Part shown: positions 3,785 through 20,193 of the stretch, piece by piece
How the letters are laid out: every line of letters starts with the position of its first letter
Numbering within the stretch: the stretch's first letter is position 1
Virus record (IMG/VR): IMGVR_UViG_3300007735_000491
Location: 1-22,480 of that record
Source of the DNA: a virus
Length of the DNA: 22,480 nucleotides
Strand: one strand, 5' to 3'
Position numbers and translations under genes: made by a program
Notes under the pieces: generated by a model
The model's input: the letters and a program-made list of their open reading frames with translations, nothing else
Told to the model about the DNA's origin: nothing
Database searches by the model: none

Positions 3785-5137
3785 TCAGTACCCTCCGCGC
3801 CCGCGGCGCTCCTGTGTGTTCCAGCGGAATGGATCCGCGTCCTGCTGCGCTTTTCGCAGCGCCGCCCCCGCCATCAGATCGGCCTTCTGCGCCGTGCGGG
3901 GGTTTCTGTACGCGAGCTGGCCGAACGTGTCGGCCCCGTGACTCGCCCAGTCATGCACCGGCAGTGCGGCCCCCGTGGGGTCCACGGTGCGCTCCTTCCA
4001 GCGGTAGTGCTGGAGACACTCAAGCAGCCGGGCGCACTTGCCCTGGTCGAACCACGTCAGCGGGAAGATCGACCGCGCCGCATAGATGCGCTCCGCGATG
4101 CTCTGCACCTTCGGGGCGATGCTGAAGTGCAGGCCCATTGAGCGGGCCATGTCCAGCCGGGTCCGCGCCCCGCCGCCCCACTCGCGGACCTGAATGTCGT
4201 GGGGGGCGTAGTGGGCCTCGTAGACGTAGGGCTTACTGCGCACCAACCGGGCGAACTCGTCCAGCCCTTTGCCGATCACCTCGTCGTAATCGATGACACG
4301 GACTTGACCGGCGGGCGTGGTCTGGCTGTAGACGATGGACATCGCATCGTCGACGCCGATGTCCAAGTCAGTCGAGACGAGCAGCGACGGGTCGTACGGC
4401 ACCACCGTAATGCGGCCCTGCTCGCGGGCGAGGGCCACTTCGCGGGCGTAGATGGCGCCCTTGACGGACGCCTCGAAGCTGCACTCGAATTCCTGCGCGT
4501 ACTCGTCGTCGGACATGACGCGGCGGGCTTCGGACAGCTCGTGGGCGTCAATCAGGTGGGTCTCGCTGGCCCGGTACGCGGCGTAGAACCAGCCCGGCTC
4601 ACGCTGGGCGGTCTGCACCACGTCGTAAAACTGGTTCTTGCCGTTGGGCGTGCCCACGAAGAGCGCCCAGCCCTTCCGGTCGGCCAGAAGCGGGCGCAGC
4701 ACCTCGGAGAAGAGGTTGCTCGCCATCAGGCCGTACTCGTCGAGGACGCAACCATCGAGATAGATGCCGCGCAGCGCGTCGGGGTTGTCGGCGCCGTAGA
4801 TGCGAATCTGCGCCCCGTTCAACGGGAAGTCCACGCGGAGCTCCGACTCGTTCACGGTCACGCCATCCACGGGACTCACGTAGTGCTTCAGGTAGTCCCA
4901 CGCGATCGCTTTCCCCATGCGGTACGTCGGGGCGATGTACGCGAAGCGGGGGCGCTCCTTCTCGCAGCGCATGGCCGCGCGGATCAGGTGATTGACGGCG
5001 AGGACCGTCTTGCCGAAACGCCGATGGCAGACCACCGCGGCAAAGCGGTGCGCATCGAGCGCGGCGTGGATCACGCGCTGCAGGGGGCGGGGCGCGTAGG
5101 GGAGCCGCACGAGCTCGGTGGCTACTGCTCCTGCCAC
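3785..5137 (-). CDS. terL: Terminase large subunit (ATPase-nuclease)
   Basis: 450 residues with the two TerL domains. In the ATPase domain the Walker A-like loop is CHRRFGKT (37-44), Walker B is VLDEY (131-135, D133/E134) and motif III is FVGTPNG (160-166). The RNase H-fold nuclease domain shows a first acidic cluster TDLDIGVDD (256-264), a middle motif APHDIQ (311-316) and a third acidic residue in HDWASHGADTFG (D403). TerL drives ATP-dependent DNA packaging into the prohead and cuts concatemers. The ATG at 5137 overlaps the small-subunit gene by 16 nt, and the TGA is followed at once by two micro-ORFs and portal. The short glycine-rich C-terminal tail (RRGRGGY) would be the portal-docking end. 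Confidence 0.95.
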   Translation of the reverse strand: MAGAVATELVRLPYAPRPLQRVIHAALDAHRFAAVVCHRRFGKTVLAVNHLIRAAMRCEKERPRFAYIAPTYRMGKAIAWDYLKHYVSPVDGVTVNESELRVDFPLNGAQIRIYGADNPDALRGIYLDGCVLDEYGLMASNLFSEVLRPLLADRKGWALFVGTPNGKNQFYDVVQTAQREPGWFYAAYRASETHLIDAHELSEARRVMSDDEYAQEFECSFEASVKGAIYAREVALAREQGRITVVPYDPSLLVSTDLDIGVDDAMSIVYSQTTPAGQVRVIDYDEVIGKGLDEFARLVRSKPYVYEAHYAPHDIQVREWGGGARTRLDMARSMGLHFSIAPKVQSIAERIYAARSIFPLTWFDQGKCARLLECLQHYRWKERTVDPTGAALPVHDWASHGADTFGQLAYRNPRTAQKADLMAGAALRKAQQDADPFRWNTQERRGRGGY

Positions 5138-9463: not shown

Positions 9464-9684
9464 GCGGCCACCCGGCGATACACCCGCTCGGCCAGTCGGC
9501 GCGTGCCACGCTGGCCGGCCGTGATGTGGACTACCTCGATGAGTCGCAGCCGCGTCAGCACCCCAAGCGCCCGCGTCCACGCTTCTCCACGCACCCGCGC
9601 CCGGCGCTGCACCGCGCCCGCGTCGATAAATCGGTCGGTGTGGAGCGCGTCCAGCACCTTCGTCGTTGTCGTGCGGGGCGTCAT
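9460..9684 (-). CDS. Small winged-helix-like protein
   Basis: 74 residues from ATG 9684 (4-nt overlap). The order TTTKVLDALHTDRFIDAGAV, then WTRALGVLTRLRLIEVV, then a basic beta-wing-like end (RGTRRLAERVYRRVAA) suggests a helix-turn-helix with a wing. The next gene upstream (9681-9950) has a similar C-terminal plan ending TLYRVAR, so the two may be diverged paralogues. Likely DNA-binding; target unknown. Confidence 0.62.
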   Translation of the reverse strand: MTPRTTTTKVLDALHTDRFIDAGAVQRRARVRGEAWTRALGVLTRLRLIEVVHITAGQRGTRRLAERVYRRVAA

Positions 9685-9950
9685 CGCGCCACCCGATACA
9701 GCGTCTGCCCCACGCGGCCCGATTCCGTTTTCAACACGCCCTCGGCTAGCATCCGCTGCAGAGCTTCGCGCGTCTTTTCCACGCCCGCATGGACCCTGTC
9801 GCGGATTTGCGACTGCGTCATCGCGCGATCACCGAGCACGGCCACGATGCGGTCCGCGATGAGTTCCGGCTCACTGGAGCTCGGAATGGCGTGTGTCGGC
9901 TGTTCGTACTCGCGCCACTTCCCGCCGTGCCAGACCACCTCTGCCTGCAT
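9681..9950 (-). CDS. Winged-helix DNA-binding-like protein
   Basis: 89 residues. The start at ATG 9950 has a strong GAGGAGGG sequence about 5 nt upstream; the longer open frame lies over the neighbour and is rejected. Residues 1-25 carry Trp/His/Tyr-rich sequence. From about 30 a winged helix follows: ELIADRIVAVLGDRAMTQSQ, then VEKTREALQRMLAEGVL, then the wing ending GQTLYRVAR. This is the plan of small phage and plasmid transcriptional regulators. It overlaps the upstream gene by one nt (TGATG). Confidence 0.65.
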   Translation of the reverse strand: MQAEVVWHGGKWREYEQPTHAIPSSSEPELIADRIVAVLGDRAMTQSQIRDRVHAGVEKTREALQRMLAEGVLKTESGRVGQTLYRVAR

Positions 9951-10210
9951 CACCGACCCTCCTCGCCCGCTTGCGCGTGCTTCCAATCCCGACCGGCGCG
10001 CATGGCTTCGATGCGCTCGGCAAACCGCGCCACCTGATAGACCCGGCCGCTGTCGGCAATCACCTCGGGCACCGCTTCCCCCGCGCAGGACACACAGCGC
10101 ACTTTCCGCCAGCCCGGCCCGCTCAACTCGAACAGTGGCGCTCCACGCCGCACCAGGGCGGGGCAACGACCGCAGGCCATGTCACGCTGTGCGCGTGTCC
10201 AGCGCCTCAT
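9950..10210 (-). CDS. Zinc-ribbon phage protein
   Basis: 86 residues from ATG 10210 (4-nt overlap with the replication gene). CGRCPALVRRGAPLF and RCVSCAG form a four-cysteine ribbon separated by about 26 residues, the arrangement of small phage zinc proteins in which the ribbon flanks a G-x-P-L-F strand. The C-terminus is helical and basic to acidic (ARFAERIEAMRAGRDW). Position between replication and HTH genes suggests an early DNA- or protein-binding factor. No specific function known to me. Confidence 0.7.
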   Translation of the reverse strand: MRRWTRAQRDMACGRCPALVRRGAPLFELSGPGWRKVRCVSCAGEAVPEVIADSGRVYQVARFAERIEAMRAGRDWKHAQAGEEGR

Positions 10211-10841: not shown

Positions 10842-11183
10842 TCACTCTCCGTACGCCTGCGGCACTCGTCCGCACTCGCGCACGCCGAAGAACCCGCGCA
10901 GCTCTGGAACGTCACGCATCAGCCAGCGGGCATAGACCGCCCGGTGGTTGTTGTTCAACTTGTAGGTACGCCCCTCGGTCGCCATCGCGGTGTAGCGCAC
11001 GACTTCAAAAGCGGCATTGATTGACCACCGCCTGCGGCCGGCGCGCTTCACTCGCCGGCAGACCGCCTCGATGGCTTGCAGCACATGCGGGTTCCGCCGA
11101 TGAAACTCGAGCGCGGCCTGTTCGATGGGGTCGCCAGGTGACTCCAGCGGCGGCTCGAACTGAAGATACAAGGTCTCGGTCAC
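10842..11183 (-). CDS. Conserved phage protein of the early region
   Basis: 113 residues from GTG 11183, which overlaps the ACP-like gene stop by 4 nt; GGAGGACCGC lies immediately upstream. The segments ALEFHRRNPHVLQAIEAVC, RAGRRRWSINAAFEVVRY, YKLNNNHRAVYARWLM and VPELRGFF match a widespread family of phage early proteins of about 100 residues with no established function. The all-helical, basic character suggests nucleic-acid association. Position directly before the replication protein suggests a replication or recombination accessory. Confidence 0.75.
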   Translation of the reverse strand: MTETLYLQFEPPLESPGDPIEQAALEFHRRNPHVLQAIEAVCRRVKRAGRRRWSINAAFEVVRYTAMATEGRTYKLNNNHRAVYARWLMRDVPELRGFFGVRECGRVPQAYGE

Positions 11184-11452
11184 GCGGTCCTCCGATGCAC
11201 GTAAGTGACAACGTCAGCCACCTGACGCCACGCGTCGGCGTCGGGCAATGGCACGTAGCAGTCGAAGGTCCGAGCCACCATCCGGCGCAGTCGGTCGATG
11301 TCGTGGTCAGTCGCGCCCAGGTCGTCCCTGAGCGCACATCCGGGCATTACTTCCAACGGCATCACGTCCAGGGCGTCCGCGATCAGCGCCGAGACGCGGT
11401 AGGCCAGCGAGTCAGCGTGGCCGTCCGCTTGGGGTTGGGGCTCGTGGCTCAC
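11180..11452 (-). CDS. Acyl-carrier-protein-like protein lacking the phosphopantetheine serine
   Basis: 90 residues from GTG 11452 (GTGA overlap). The body aligns with bacterial ACP: RVSALIADALDVMPLEV (helix 1), GCALRDDLGATDHDIDRL (loop 1 and start of helix 2), MVARTFDCYVPLPDADAW (acidic helix 2 to 3) and QVADVVTYV (helix 4). In ACP the signature is DLGADSLD, where Ser carries 4'-phosphopantetheine. Here it is DLGATDHD, and residue 49 is Asp in place of that Ser. The fold is probably kept while the carrier function is lost, unless Thr48 is used. Phage ACP homologues are known, but this substitution points to a binding or regulatory role. The neighbouring 58-residue gene is hydrophobic. The fold call is strong; the function is unknown. 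Confidence 0.72.
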   Translation of the reverse strand: MSHEPQPQADGHADSLAYRVSALIADALDVMPLEVMPGCALRDDLGATDHDIDRLRRMVARTFDCYVPLPDADAWRQVADVVTYVHRRTA

Positions 11453-11625
11453 GCCTGCACCTCCACACCCCGCGCACGGGCCGCGTCGATCACGTCCTCG
11501 GTGGTCGGCACTTTTGGCAGTCGCTGCACGTAGAGCAGGGCCACTTCCCCGGCATAGCGCACGACGTAGGCCGCAACAGCCACACGCGCCAGCTCCACAA
11601 CCGCTCCGGCAATCACTTCCGTCAT
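11449..11625 (-). CDS. Small membrane-associated protein
   Basis: 58 residues from ATG 11625 (overlapping the HNH stop by 4 nt), with AAGGAG 9 nt upstream. Residues 1-32 are hydrophobic or amphipathic (VIAGAVVELARVAVAAYVV), enough for one membrane helix. The C-terminal part is hydrophilic (PTTEDVIDAARARGVEV). It is coupled to the ACP-like gene. No family recognised. It could be an inner-membrane peptide or a soluble helical partner. Confidence 0.6.
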   Translation of the reverse strand: MTEVIAGAVVELARVAVAAYVVRYAGEVALLYVQRLPKVPTTEDVIDAARARGVEVQA

Positions 11626-11939
11626 TGGTGGTGCTCCTTGCGGTGGCACACGGAACAAAGCGTGACCGCCGCGTCAGGGTTGAATCGATCCTCGGGGGCC
11701 ACATTGCGGCCTCGGAGGTGGTGAACGTGCGCCGCGCGGGGATGCCAGTGATCGGCCGTCCGCATCACCGGGATGTTGCAGCGCACACAGCGATAGCTGT
11801 CCCGTTGCCGCACGGCTTCGCGGAACTGACGCCCCGCCCTCGTCCGCGCCGCGCGGCGCTTCTTCGAGTCGGCGCCCTTCGCGGGCTTCGGGGACGCACC
11901 TGAGACGCTGCCGAGCACGGGGAGGTCAGACAGACTCAC
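11622..11939 (-). CDS. HNH endonuclease
   Basis: 105 residues from GTG 11939 (GTGA overlap). A basic N-terminus (KKRRAARTRAGRQF) precedes a beta-beta-alpha metal site: YRCVRC (C51/C54), AAHVHHLRGR (H71-H74), an Asn in RFNPDAAV, and LCSVCHRKEH (C95/C98, H99). The paired CxxC holds structural zinc and the HHL/N/H residues form the active site. In HK97-like phages an HNH protein near terminase helps packaging; here it is about 6 kb upstream of terL in the early operon, so it may act in recombination or as a homing-type nuclease. Confidence 0.88.
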   Translation of the reverse strand: MSLSDLPVLGSVSGASPKPAKGADSKKRRAARTRAGRQFREAVRQRDSYRCVRCNIPVMRTADHWHPRAAHVHHLRGRNVAPEDRFNPDAAVTLCSVCHRKEHHQ

Positions 11940-12172: not shown

Positions 12173-12519
12173 GACGTGTCTCCGTCTGCGTCCAGCGGAG
12201 TGTTGATGTGATCCGGCGTCGTCGTCTGTGCCAACACGAACGCCTTTTCGAGCATGTCGAAGCCGTACCAGTCCGCGAAGTCAGCCAGCGGAATCAGGTG
12301 TGACAGCAGGAAATCGGGCTTGGCTTCCACGGCCGAGAGCATCATCGCCACTCGGTCCACTGCATCTGCGCGGGACTCGTGCTTGCGGGGCCGGAGCGAG
12401 GTGTAAAGCGCCGCCACGATCGCCGCCCGGTCCCGCACGAACACCGCATCGGCTTCGCGCTCGACGTGCCGCGCCTGCGCGTCGTCCATCTGGCTGTCAA
12501 AACTGCGGTTCTCAGTCAT
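12163..12519 (-). CDS. Early-region protein of unknown function
   Basis: 118 residues from ATG 12519 (4-nt overlap). Mostly helical and acidic: DAQARHVEREADAVF, IVAALYTSLRPRK, AVDRVAMMLSAVEAK, then a hydrophobic segment FLLSHLIPLADFADWYGF. There are no catalytic motifs or cysteines. It is co-transcribed with the recombination genes. I do not recognise it. Confidence 0.68.
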   Translation of the reverse strand: MTENRSFDSQMDDAQARHVEREADAVFVRDRAAIVAALYTSLRPRKHESRADAVDRVAMMLSAVEAKPDFLLSHLIPLADFADWYGFDMLEKAFVLAQTTTPDHINTPLDADGDTSWS

Positions 12520-12797
12520 AACGCCTCGTGAGGGTCTGGAATGTAGATGTCGGCGCGTTCCGCGAGTAGGCGCCGACAGTCGTCTACGTAGTGCTCAAAG
12601 CGATCCGGCGGTAGTTGCGCGGTGCTCTCGCGCGTCATCTGCCCGTCGTCATCCACGGCGGGCAGGAGATACGTCGCCAGCACCTCGTGCATCTCGCGCT
12701 TGTCGTACCCGGTGTAGTCACACCACGCGGGAATCACGAGATGCCAGTAGTAGCGATTCCAGCCGCTAGAACGGCGCGTCGTCGTCGGAACGGCCAT
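12516..12797 (-). CDS. Conserved phage protein associated with recombination genes
   Basis: 93 residues from ATG 12797, overlapping the SSB-like gene by 32 nt. Key segments are RYYWHLVIPAWCDYTGYDKREMH (split here as RYYWHLVIPAW and TGYDKREMHEVLA), then TRESTAQLPPDRFEHYVDDCRRL and DIYIPDPHEA. This arrangement (Y/W-x-V-I/V-P, a G-Y-x-K-x-E-x-H helix, an S-T-x-x-L strand, a terminal I-P-D-P) is typical of a common phage family found beside ssDNA-annealing genes; its activity is not established to my knowledge. It is probably an accessory of the ERF/SSB pair. Confidence 0.75.
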   Translation of the reverse strand: MAVPTTTRRSSGWNRYYWHLVIPAWCDYTGYDKREMHEVLATYLLPAVDDDGQMTRESTAQLPPDRFEHYVDDCRRLLAERADIYIPDPHEAL

Positions 12798-13071: not shown

Positions 13072-13677
13072 CTACAGCACCGGCAGTGGTGCGTTCTGTC
13101 GCGCCCGGTCCACCAGTGCGGTGAGCGTGTGCGGCTGCGTCTCTTCGAGGAACTTGCGGTGCTTTGCTGCGGACGACTTGTAGCCGTCTCGGAACGTGTC
13201 GAGGTCAGCCGTCTCGCTCATCGCCCGCAGGTCATCCAGCCACGCCTTAAACCCGATGGGTTCCGGCACCTGGGCGGCGGGCTTGCTCTGCACGGCGGCG
13301 TTGCCGTCGTCGTCGTCCGCGATGGTCCCGAACGCCGCAGACAGCGCGTAGCGCCGAGCGTAGGAACACGCCGAGCCGAAGCCCTGCGCGTCGTGCTTCG
13401 TCGCCGGGATAAACAGCGGGCCACACTCCACCCACTCGCCGGAGGCGTGGCAGATCCGCGTGACCACGGCCACGCCGTTGTCGTCGCTCGTGAGTTCCTG
13501 AATCACGCTCAGGTTGTGCGCCTTCGCTGCCGGCCGAATCGCTTCAACGTGGCTCGTGAGGTCGGCGTACTTGGAGCGGAACGCCGGATTAGTGCTGTCC
13601 TTCGTCGCCGCCTCAAGGACGCCCTGCGCCTTCGCCAAGGCGTCGAAGATCTTCGTGGTCGTGTCGCTGGTCTTCAT
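13072..13677 (-). CDS. erf: ERF-family single-strand annealing protein
   Basis: 201 residues. The N-terminal domain (1-125) carries the ERF pattern: IFDALAKAQG, NPAFRSKYADL (30-40), an AHNLSVIQE strand and GSACSYARRYALSAAFGTIA (101-120) followed by DDDDGNAA (121-128). ERF proteins (P22 Erf type) form rings that anneal complementary ssDNA for phage recombination and genome circularisation. The C-terminal 60 residues are helical and likely handle partner contacts. It overlaps the upstream gene by 4 nt (ATGA) and lies 9 nt before the SSB-like gene, a typical recombination pair. Confidence 0.93.
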   Translation of the reverse strand: MKTSDTTTKIFDALAKAQGVLEAATKDSTNPAFRSKYADLTSHVEAIRPAAKAHNLSVIQELTSDDNGVAVVTRICHASGEWVECGPLFIPATKHDAQGFGSACSYARRYALSAAFGTIADDDDGNAAVQSKPAAQVPEPIGFKAWLDDLRAMSETADLDTFRDGYKSSAAKHRKFLEETQPHTLTALVDRARQNAPLPVL

Positions 13678-18758: not shown

Positions 18759-19144
18759 GCGGCCACCAGCAGCGATACGGCCCGGTAGCCGGTCGCCTCC
18801 AGATACGCGTCGAGCTCCCAGATGGTCCCGTCCATGTCCCACACGAGCCCACGCTTACAGAACGCGACGTGGCCGGTCCTGTCCCTGTCGCGCAGGAAGC
18901 CCACGATGCCCTCATCTTCTTCAGGGTCGAACGACCGGTGCAGCGTGAGCGTCGTGCCGAGCCGCTTGGCGATGCGCCGGATCTCGCGCGTGTGCAGCCC
19001 GCGATTGTGCGGGCGCTCGGCGCCGGTGACGCGCACGGCTTCCGATAACACGTCCTCATAGCCGACCTGCAGGTAGATGGACAGGGCCACCAGGGCGCAG
19101 TCCCCTTCTCCGCGCGAGACTTGGAAGCGCACGACGGCCGGCAT
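18755..19144 (-). CDS. Putative C39/papain-like cysteine peptidase
   Basis: 129 residues from ATG 19144 (TGATG overlap). GEGDCALVALSIYL places a Cys (C16) at the start of a helix, HVAF gives H92 after a strand, and VWDMDG offers D103 or D105. This Cys-His-Asp order and spacing matches C39/BtrH-type papain-like folds. Between them is a helical region RGLHTREIRRIAKRLG typical of that superfamily. Phage relatives occur without known substrates; possibilities are protein processing, deubiquitin-like removal of a host tag, or loss of activity. Family call tentative. Confidence 0.62.
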   Translation of the reverse strand: MPAVVRFQVSRGEGDCALVALSIYLQVGYEDVLSEAVRVTGAERPHNRGLHTREIRRIAKRLGTTLTLHRSFDPEEDEGIVGFLRDRDRTGHVAFCKRGLVWDMDGTIWELDAYLEATGYRAVSLLVAA

Positions 19145-20193
19145 CAGGCTGCCTTCTTCTTCCGCAGAAACGTCAGGAAGTCCGCGCCGACCTCCGGGTC
19201 GTTGAACACGGTGATCAGCCGCGGGTCGTCGTCAGCGAAGCGCGGCTGGAACACGATCACCGGGCACACCGTAACCGTCTGGTCAGGTAGCCCGAGCTGG
19301 TCGGCGTAGCGGTCGAACGTCTTGTAGGAGCCCACGCGGATCGCGTGCGAGATCAGGCGCGTCATGGGGTCGCGCAGGTGCTGGTAGCCGCTCTGGTGCG
19401 TGTGGCCGCACACGAGAACGTGGTCACGCCAGCCCATTTGCGCCGCCTTGGACACGCCGTGCGCCGAGTTCCACATCGAGTGCCCACGGAAGTCGTGCCG
19501 CGCGTTGAGGCGAATCTCTCGGCCCTTCGGTGTGGTCAGCGCGATGCGCACCTGATTGTCGTAGAGCACGTCGAGTTCTTGGGCCAGCCGCTGGATCGGG
19601 TCGCGCGACTGGCTCCAGGCGTCGTGGTTGCCCTTCACCCAGAACAGCCAGGTGACGCTGCGCAGGAACCATTCAGCCAGCCCCCACGCCTCGTCGGCGC
19701 TGGTCGACTGCTCGGCCCAGAGCTTCATCAATCGGCCGTCCCAGTTGTTGTTCACGTCGCCAATCTGGCCACAGACGAGCCCCGGTGTGCGCGCGACGAT
19801 GTCGAGATGGGCCTTCAGCGTGCGCAGGTCGGTGCCGTCGTCATCGACGTGCGGGTCGCCGAAGATGGCCACGCCGAACGGTCCGGTCTCTTTGATGCGC
19901 ACCGGGATCAGCTTGCGCGCATCCTTCGCGGTGGCCTTCTGCGAAAACTTCTTCAACCGCTGCGCGATCAGCTCGTCGATGTCGATGTGAGTGTTCGGTA
20001 ATTCTGGAATATCGAACGGTTTCGGCGCGAGACGCCCGAGCTGCTCGGCCACGCGCGCGGCTTTGAGACGGCTCTCGAAGGTCGGCACCGACAGCCCAAG
20101 TTCGGCCGCCGCGTTCTGGCGCGACCGCTGGTGCCGTTCGTAGGCATCGAGCGTCTCGCGCATCACCGAGAGGGCTAGGGGTTTCGCGGCCAT
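19144..20193 (-). CDS. HTH-metallophosphoesterase fusion
   Basis: 349 residues from ATG 20193 with GAGGAG 5 nt upstream. The N-terminal 50 residues look like a helix-turn-helix (LDAYERHQRSRQNAAAELGL then SVPTFESRL). A linker follows, and then the calcineurin-like domain: FGDPHVDD (111-118), GQIGDVNNNW (142-151), VKGNHDAW (186-193), NARHDFRGHS (230-239) and VCGHTHQSGY (261-270). All metal-binding motifs are intact. It could act on nucleic acid, nucleotides or phosphoproteins. The HTH is of the type seen in resolvases and terminase small subunits and could direct it to DNA. Confidence 0.88.
   Translation of the reverse strand: MAAKPLALSVMRETLDAYERHQRSRQNAAAELGLSVPTFESRLKAARVAEQLGRLAPKPFDIPELPNTHIDIDELIAQRLKKFSQKATAKDARKLIPVRIKETGPFGVAIFGDPHVDDDGTDLRTLKAHLDIVARTPGLVCGQIGDVNNNWDGRLMKLWAEQSTSADEAWGLAEWFLRSVTWLFWVKGNHDAWSQSRDPIQRLAQELDVLYDNQVRIALTTPKGREIRLNARHDFRGHSMWNSAHGVSKAAQMGWRDHVLVCGHTHQSGYQHLRDPMTRLISHAIRVGSYKTFDRYADQLGLPDQTVTVCPVIVFQPRFADDDPRLITVFNDPEVGADFLTFLRKKKAA

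Follow-up and report, generated by a model that had tools for sequence, protein, structure and literature searches.

Background

The serine of acyl carrier proteins (ACPs) is the attachment site of 4'-phosphopantetheine and is required by any ordinary acyl carrier. Homologues of these proteins occur in phage genomes, among them Xanthomonas phages PhiXhv-12 and phiXF1, Brevundimonas phage Bajun and Prochlorococcus phage P-HM2, and have been reported from Erythrobacter phage R6L (PMC5463345) and from roseobacter prophages, some of which pair acpP with fabF/fabG (PMC8224337). It is common practice to label phage ACPs auxiliary metabolic genes from their fold alone (e.g., PMC8224337, PMC5463345). 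ACPs are also known as non-catalytic subunits of other machines, since apo- and holo-AcpP stimulate MukB to the same extent (PMC8602292) and the titles of PDB entries describe AcpM bound to EmbA-EmbB and to MmpL5.

The locus described here lies on a virus contig of 22,480 bases (64-68% GC, with terminase, portal and integrase genes), the whole of which is referred to below as the window. Like the phages named above, it carries an ACP homologue, and the encoded protein shares with AcpP (PF00550; PDB 1l0h, 2ehs) the four-helix fold, the DDLGA turn, the hydrophobic core and the size, but it lacks the phosphopantetheine serine, has a basic helix II and is missed by the Pfam model. All six ACPs that we read from phage records carry Ser, as DSL or DSF, whereas the window protein carries Asp. 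Unlike some of the roseobacter prophages, the window has no fabF/fabG pairing, and no fatty-acid, PKS or PPTase gene was found among the window genes scanned. The loss of the serine from a fold that is kept recalls the engineered obligate apo-ACPs (S36T, S39A), but those laboratory mutants retain the full acidic recognition face.

The gene and its operon

The ACP-like gene occupies positions 11180..11452 of the minus strand, from a GTG start at 11452 to a TGA stop at 11180-11182, and encodes 90 amino acids. A sequence-only reading of the same DNA had proposed this open reading frame and gave no strand for it; the frame is real and lies on the minus strand. It is the top scorer of the six frames under a codon-usage model of the window, and we consider the gene to be translated because a GGAGG ribosome-binding site lies 7 nt upstream of the GTG and the GC content at codon positions 1/2/3 (0.74/0.46/0.81) is of the coding type.

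The gene sits in a tightly packed, early-type operon with overlapping starts and stops. The order on the minus strand runs from an ERF single-strand annealing protein (13072..13677), in the same early recombination block as the ACP-like gene, through small genes, one of which gives a weak match to NinB/Orf-like recombination mediators (12516..12797, E 1.8e-4), to an HNH endonuclease (11622..11939). Directly upstream of the ACP-like gene is the gene for a 58-aa protein (11449..11625), whose stop overlaps the GTG; on the other side, the stop of the ACP-like gene is overlapped by the start of a gene for a 113-aa phage protein (10842..11183) of phrog_13625, a family without an assigned function, and beyond it come genes for a protein weakly resembling DnaD, for a VRR-NUC-type nuclease and for a cytosine methylase. 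The sequence-only reading had suggested a coupled hydrophobic gene as a possible partner: the 58-aa gene exists and is a candidate for that role, but it precedes the ACP-like gene in the operon, and its product is only moderately hydrophobic.

Homology and fold

Of the 48 PDB sequences that phmmer matched to the window protein at E <= 10, almost all are ACPs; the best match has E 5.1e-5, and its alignment runs without a gap across 74 residues. The reversed protein, used as a control, gave no ACP match. Among phage records, tblastn found the ACPs of Xanthomonas jumbo phages, that of PhiXhv-12 being the best phage match (36.5% identity, E 5e-5). The Pfam model PF00550 gave no match to the window protein at E <= 1, and the gathering score was not reached, while the model matched all the other ACP-like proteins that were tested, with L404 and L244 (described below) falling short of the cut-off. 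Judged in this way, no other protein of the set has diverged as far as the window protein.

The predicted structure agrees with the searches. An AlphaFold model guided by an input alignment of 13 ACP-like proteins, so that its fold leans on the ACP alignment, has four helices in the ACP order with a mean pLDDT of 89 (about 96 in the core), and Foldseek matches it to ACP structures (TM about 0.9, rmsd about 1.1 A) and, in BFVD, to phage ACPs. A single-sequence, unguided model is poor (pLDDT 59), and its top PDB matches are likewise ACPs (E 0.1-0.7). The window protein is thus an ACP by descent, with homology far above chance, and the four-helix ACP fold that had been read from the letters, for which a structural search had been named as a check, is borne out.

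The lost serine

The motif of the window protein reads D43 D44 L45 G46 A47 T48 D49 H50 D51 (DNA at 11297-11326, minus strand: GACGACCTGGGCGCGACTGACCACGACATC). Asp49, encoded by GAC at 11306..11308 (minus), aligns without a gap with Ser36 of the E. coli protein, as the earlier reading had it, and is the first residue of helix II in the guided model; in terms of the DSL motif, Asp49 replaces Ser36 and His50 replaces Leu37. In E. coli ACP, even the S36T substitution leaves a protein that is not modified and does not function (PMC3340395), and a carrier function is excluded as far as the sequence allows. A hydroxyl residue, Thr48, adjoins Asp49, and one might suppose that it takes the phosphopantetheine instead, or that the register of the alignment hides the real site. 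We find this scarcely credible: the alignment is free of gaps on both sides of the site, Thr48 corresponds to residue 35 and lies ahead of the modelled helix II, and the hydroxyl of the S36T mutant is left unmodified. A compensated frameshift that turned DSLD into DHD was also considered and rejected, the neighbouring frame reading a stop and not Ser.

The recognition face and the core

For a handful of ACPs we compared, in E. coli numbering, 19 positions that we take to form the core and 17 exposed positions that we take to form the recognition face, both sets being picked from general knowledge of ACP structure. The window protein is hydrophobic at 19/19 core positions, and on the recognition face it is identical to E. 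coli AcpP at 2/17, as compared with 7-12/17 for five Ser-bearing phage ACPs, 13/17 for Aquifex and 6/17 for Borrelia. It keeps 2/9 acidic positions, against 6-9/9 in the Ser-bearing phage ACPs, and has Arg at the positions of E41, V43, M44 and E48, while F50 is retained. The charge of helix II (segment 35-50) is +1 in the window protein versus -5 to -7, so that the recognition helix (residues 49-63, DHDIDRLRRMVARTF; 11264..11308, minus) has passed from acidic to basic. The change therefore reaches far beyond the Ser to Asp codon, which is the new finding here. The loss of the serine and the loss of the face coincide, since three other Ser-less proteins (L387, L401 and L244) show the same trend, with 4-5/17 face positions kept.

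A face that has been rewritten around a core that has been kept argues for repurposing over a recent point mutation or plain decay, and on this point the sequence-only reading, which had preferred repurposing to a fresh mutation, has held up. It could still be supposed that the gene is a relic, a phage-borne ACP that has gone out of use and is drifting. The protein does sit on a very long branch in our tree, and homologues are scarce: none was detected in the structural relatives of the window (L073-L078), and no close one in viral contigs, genome contigs, plasmids or 754 proteobacterial genomes, where the best matches (L416-L418) are canonical ACPs with Ser. One structural relative, L073, has a terminase 94% identical to that at window positions 3785-5137 (minus) and has its structural half in common with the window, but is without the early region that holds the ACP-like gene. 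A match in Vibrio CKB-S1 proved spurious, being antisense to an annotated gene. Drift, however, would be expected to affect core and surface equally, and the open frame, ribosome-binding site, overlapping starts and stops and coding-type GC pattern are those of a maintained gene; we regard decay as improbable and place it third among the readings.

The same surface bears on the partners that the protein might have. In E. coli ACP, V43E, M44I and F50S each abolish, as single changes, many contacts with clients, namely SpoT, MukB, and FabA or FabZ (PMC3340395). Because changes at V43, M44 and F50 break such contacts and most of the face differs in the window protein, docking on the ordinary clients of ACP is unlikely. 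The earlier proposal, that the protein mimics ACP and docks on host clients such as fatty-acid synthesis enzymes or SpoT, fares poorly against the four arginines and the positive helix II. A more elaborate form of that proposal is an obligate apo-ACP decoy that would compete with host AcpP on AcpS, PlsB and other clients, and so throttle lipid synthesis or stress signalling. There are precedents for harm done by apo-ACP, in that an obligate apo (S39A) cyanobacterial ACP suppressed the growth of E. coli (PMC4736557), and the passage of the same paper that cites Keating 1995 has the glycerol-3-phosphate acyltransferase inhibited by apo-ACP; MukB takes apo-ACP as well as holo-ACP (PMC8602292), and the setting of the gene, among small early-type phage genes, would suit such a role. 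A basic helix II, Arg in place of E41, V43, M44 and E48, only 2/9 acidic positions, and the sensitivity of client contacts to single changes all speak against a decoy. We rank the decoy second, as an unlikely explanation that is slightly ahead of decay.

Other ACP-like proteins without the serine

The earlier reading had asked whether homologues mostly carry Ser. Distant phage ACPs mostly do, several other phage ACP-like proteins do not, and the window protein has no close homologue in the collections searched that could show whether its Asp is conserved. In a scan of viral contigs that was blind to residues 35-37, at least 18 ACP-like frames were found among the matches listed, which are a sample and include near-duplicates, with Ser in 17 and Gln in one (L387). 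A complete scan of viral contigs for non-Ser forms gave 15 matches, three of them ACP-like: L387 and L401, both with DLGADQLD, and L404, with DLGADPTD. The survey of Ser-less forms relied on high-GC codons and on the DLGA motif, and the numbers that it gave should not be read as frequencies. A pattern scan of genome contigs yielded one clearly ACP-like protein (L244) among the 115 matches listed. Most phage ACPs retain the serine, and Ser-less forms recur with Gln (L387, L401) and Pro (L404). In a tree with long branches and little support, a single clade of the five Ser-less entries is not rejected (p-AU 0.25), and the serine may have been lost once or several times.

L387 (4861-5293, minus) and L401 (5790-6234, plus) hold a conserved gene pair, situated downstream of YqaJ and other recombination genes, in which the gene for a hydrophobic protein overlaps that for a Gln-type ACP-like protein. 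Their common operon includes a YqaJ exonuclease (confirmed by Pfam in L401), a second recombination-type gene and a nuclease-like gene, and directly upstream of the ACP, overlapping it, is a gene for a strongly hydrophobic, single-TM-like protein of 55 or 59 aa. The window resembles them in the lost serine, the weakened acidic face, the overlapping small hydrophobic gene upstream and the nearby recombination genes. It differs in that its ACP-like protein is only 23-27% identical to theirs, has Asp and not Gln at position 36, and is missed by PF00550, which matches theirs; its 58-aa protein is moderately rather than strongly hydrophobic and gave no alignment with the 59-aa protein of L401, so that the two are not homologous. 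The persistence of Gln in two phages that have diverged suggests that the Ser-less form is under selection. The L387/L401 pair is better conserved than the window case and is perhaps the better object for study.

The Pro form, L404 (5769-6029, plus), follows a gene resembling the DNA polymerase III beta clamp and precedes an N6-methylase. L244 (7599-7841, plus; MIBE01000064.1, from a Spirochaetes MAG) is an ACP-like protein of the Asp form with DLGASDSD, in which the register (ASDSD) is ambiguous; it has a block of Mu-like prophage head genes on one side and a host-type gene on the other, in a genome that also has a canonical ACP (L412).

The proximity of Ser-less phage ACPs to DNA-processing genes (ERF and HNH in the window, YqaJ and a nuclease-like gene in L401, the sliding-clamp-like gene in L404) might point to MukB/condensin as the target, or to some other DNA machine of the host with a tolerance for apo-ACP, and would link the gene to its recombination block; AcpP is needed for the ATPase activity of MukB, and apo-AcpP works (PMC8602292). 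But most of the ACP mutations that break the contact with SpoT also break that with MukB (PMC3340395), and the window protein has been remodelled on the corresponding surface. Phage ACPs that keep the serine may also lie near replication genes, as does the canonical ACP gene of Xanthomonas phage phiXF1 (L419:2956-3201), found between the annotated gyrase B and gyrase A genes. We therefore hold a target of this kind to be quite improbable, less so only than a surviving carrier function.

A proposed repurposing as a scaffold

The explanation that we rank first, and to which we would give about an even chance, is that an old carrier fold has been reused for a different binding job. A phage lineage would have captured an ACP, lost its carrier function and retained the fold, a small and stable bundle of four helices, as a scaffold for binding other proteins. 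Without the serine the protein cannot acquire a phosphopantetheine arm in the usual way, and Asp49 probably does no more than cap helix II. Because the face that reads partners has turned from acidic to basic or mixed, the partner most likely differs from those of host AcpP; it is probably encoded in the same early operon, or else is a host protein that the phage encounters soon after infection. The co-translated 58-aa protein is one candidate, its gene having the same position relative to the ACP as the TM genes of L387 and L401. More broadly, and with more doubt, though somewhat more readily than we would accept a decoy, Ser-less ACP-fold proteins may form a recurring class of phage adaptors or host-takeover proteins, often with a small hydrophobic partner by recombination genes, of which the basic-helix form would represent a new binding specificity.

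Since there are phage ACPs that are unable to act as carriers, the auxiliary-metabolic reading of such genes can be wrong where the serine is missing, and the window protein offers a clean test case for the uses that phages make of the ACP fold. Should its partner prove to be a host protein, a new host-takeover contact would be at hand. A direct partnership with phrog_13625 as a rule was considered and rejected, the relative of the 113-aa protein in L004 having no adjoining ACP gene. Elsewhere on the minus strand of the window, a 161-aa protein (9681-10166) weakly matches phrog_142, a Ren-like exclusion family (E 0.002), and a 349-aa protein (19144-20193) strongly matches phrog_7339, a family of phage DNA repair exonucleases (E 4e-42).
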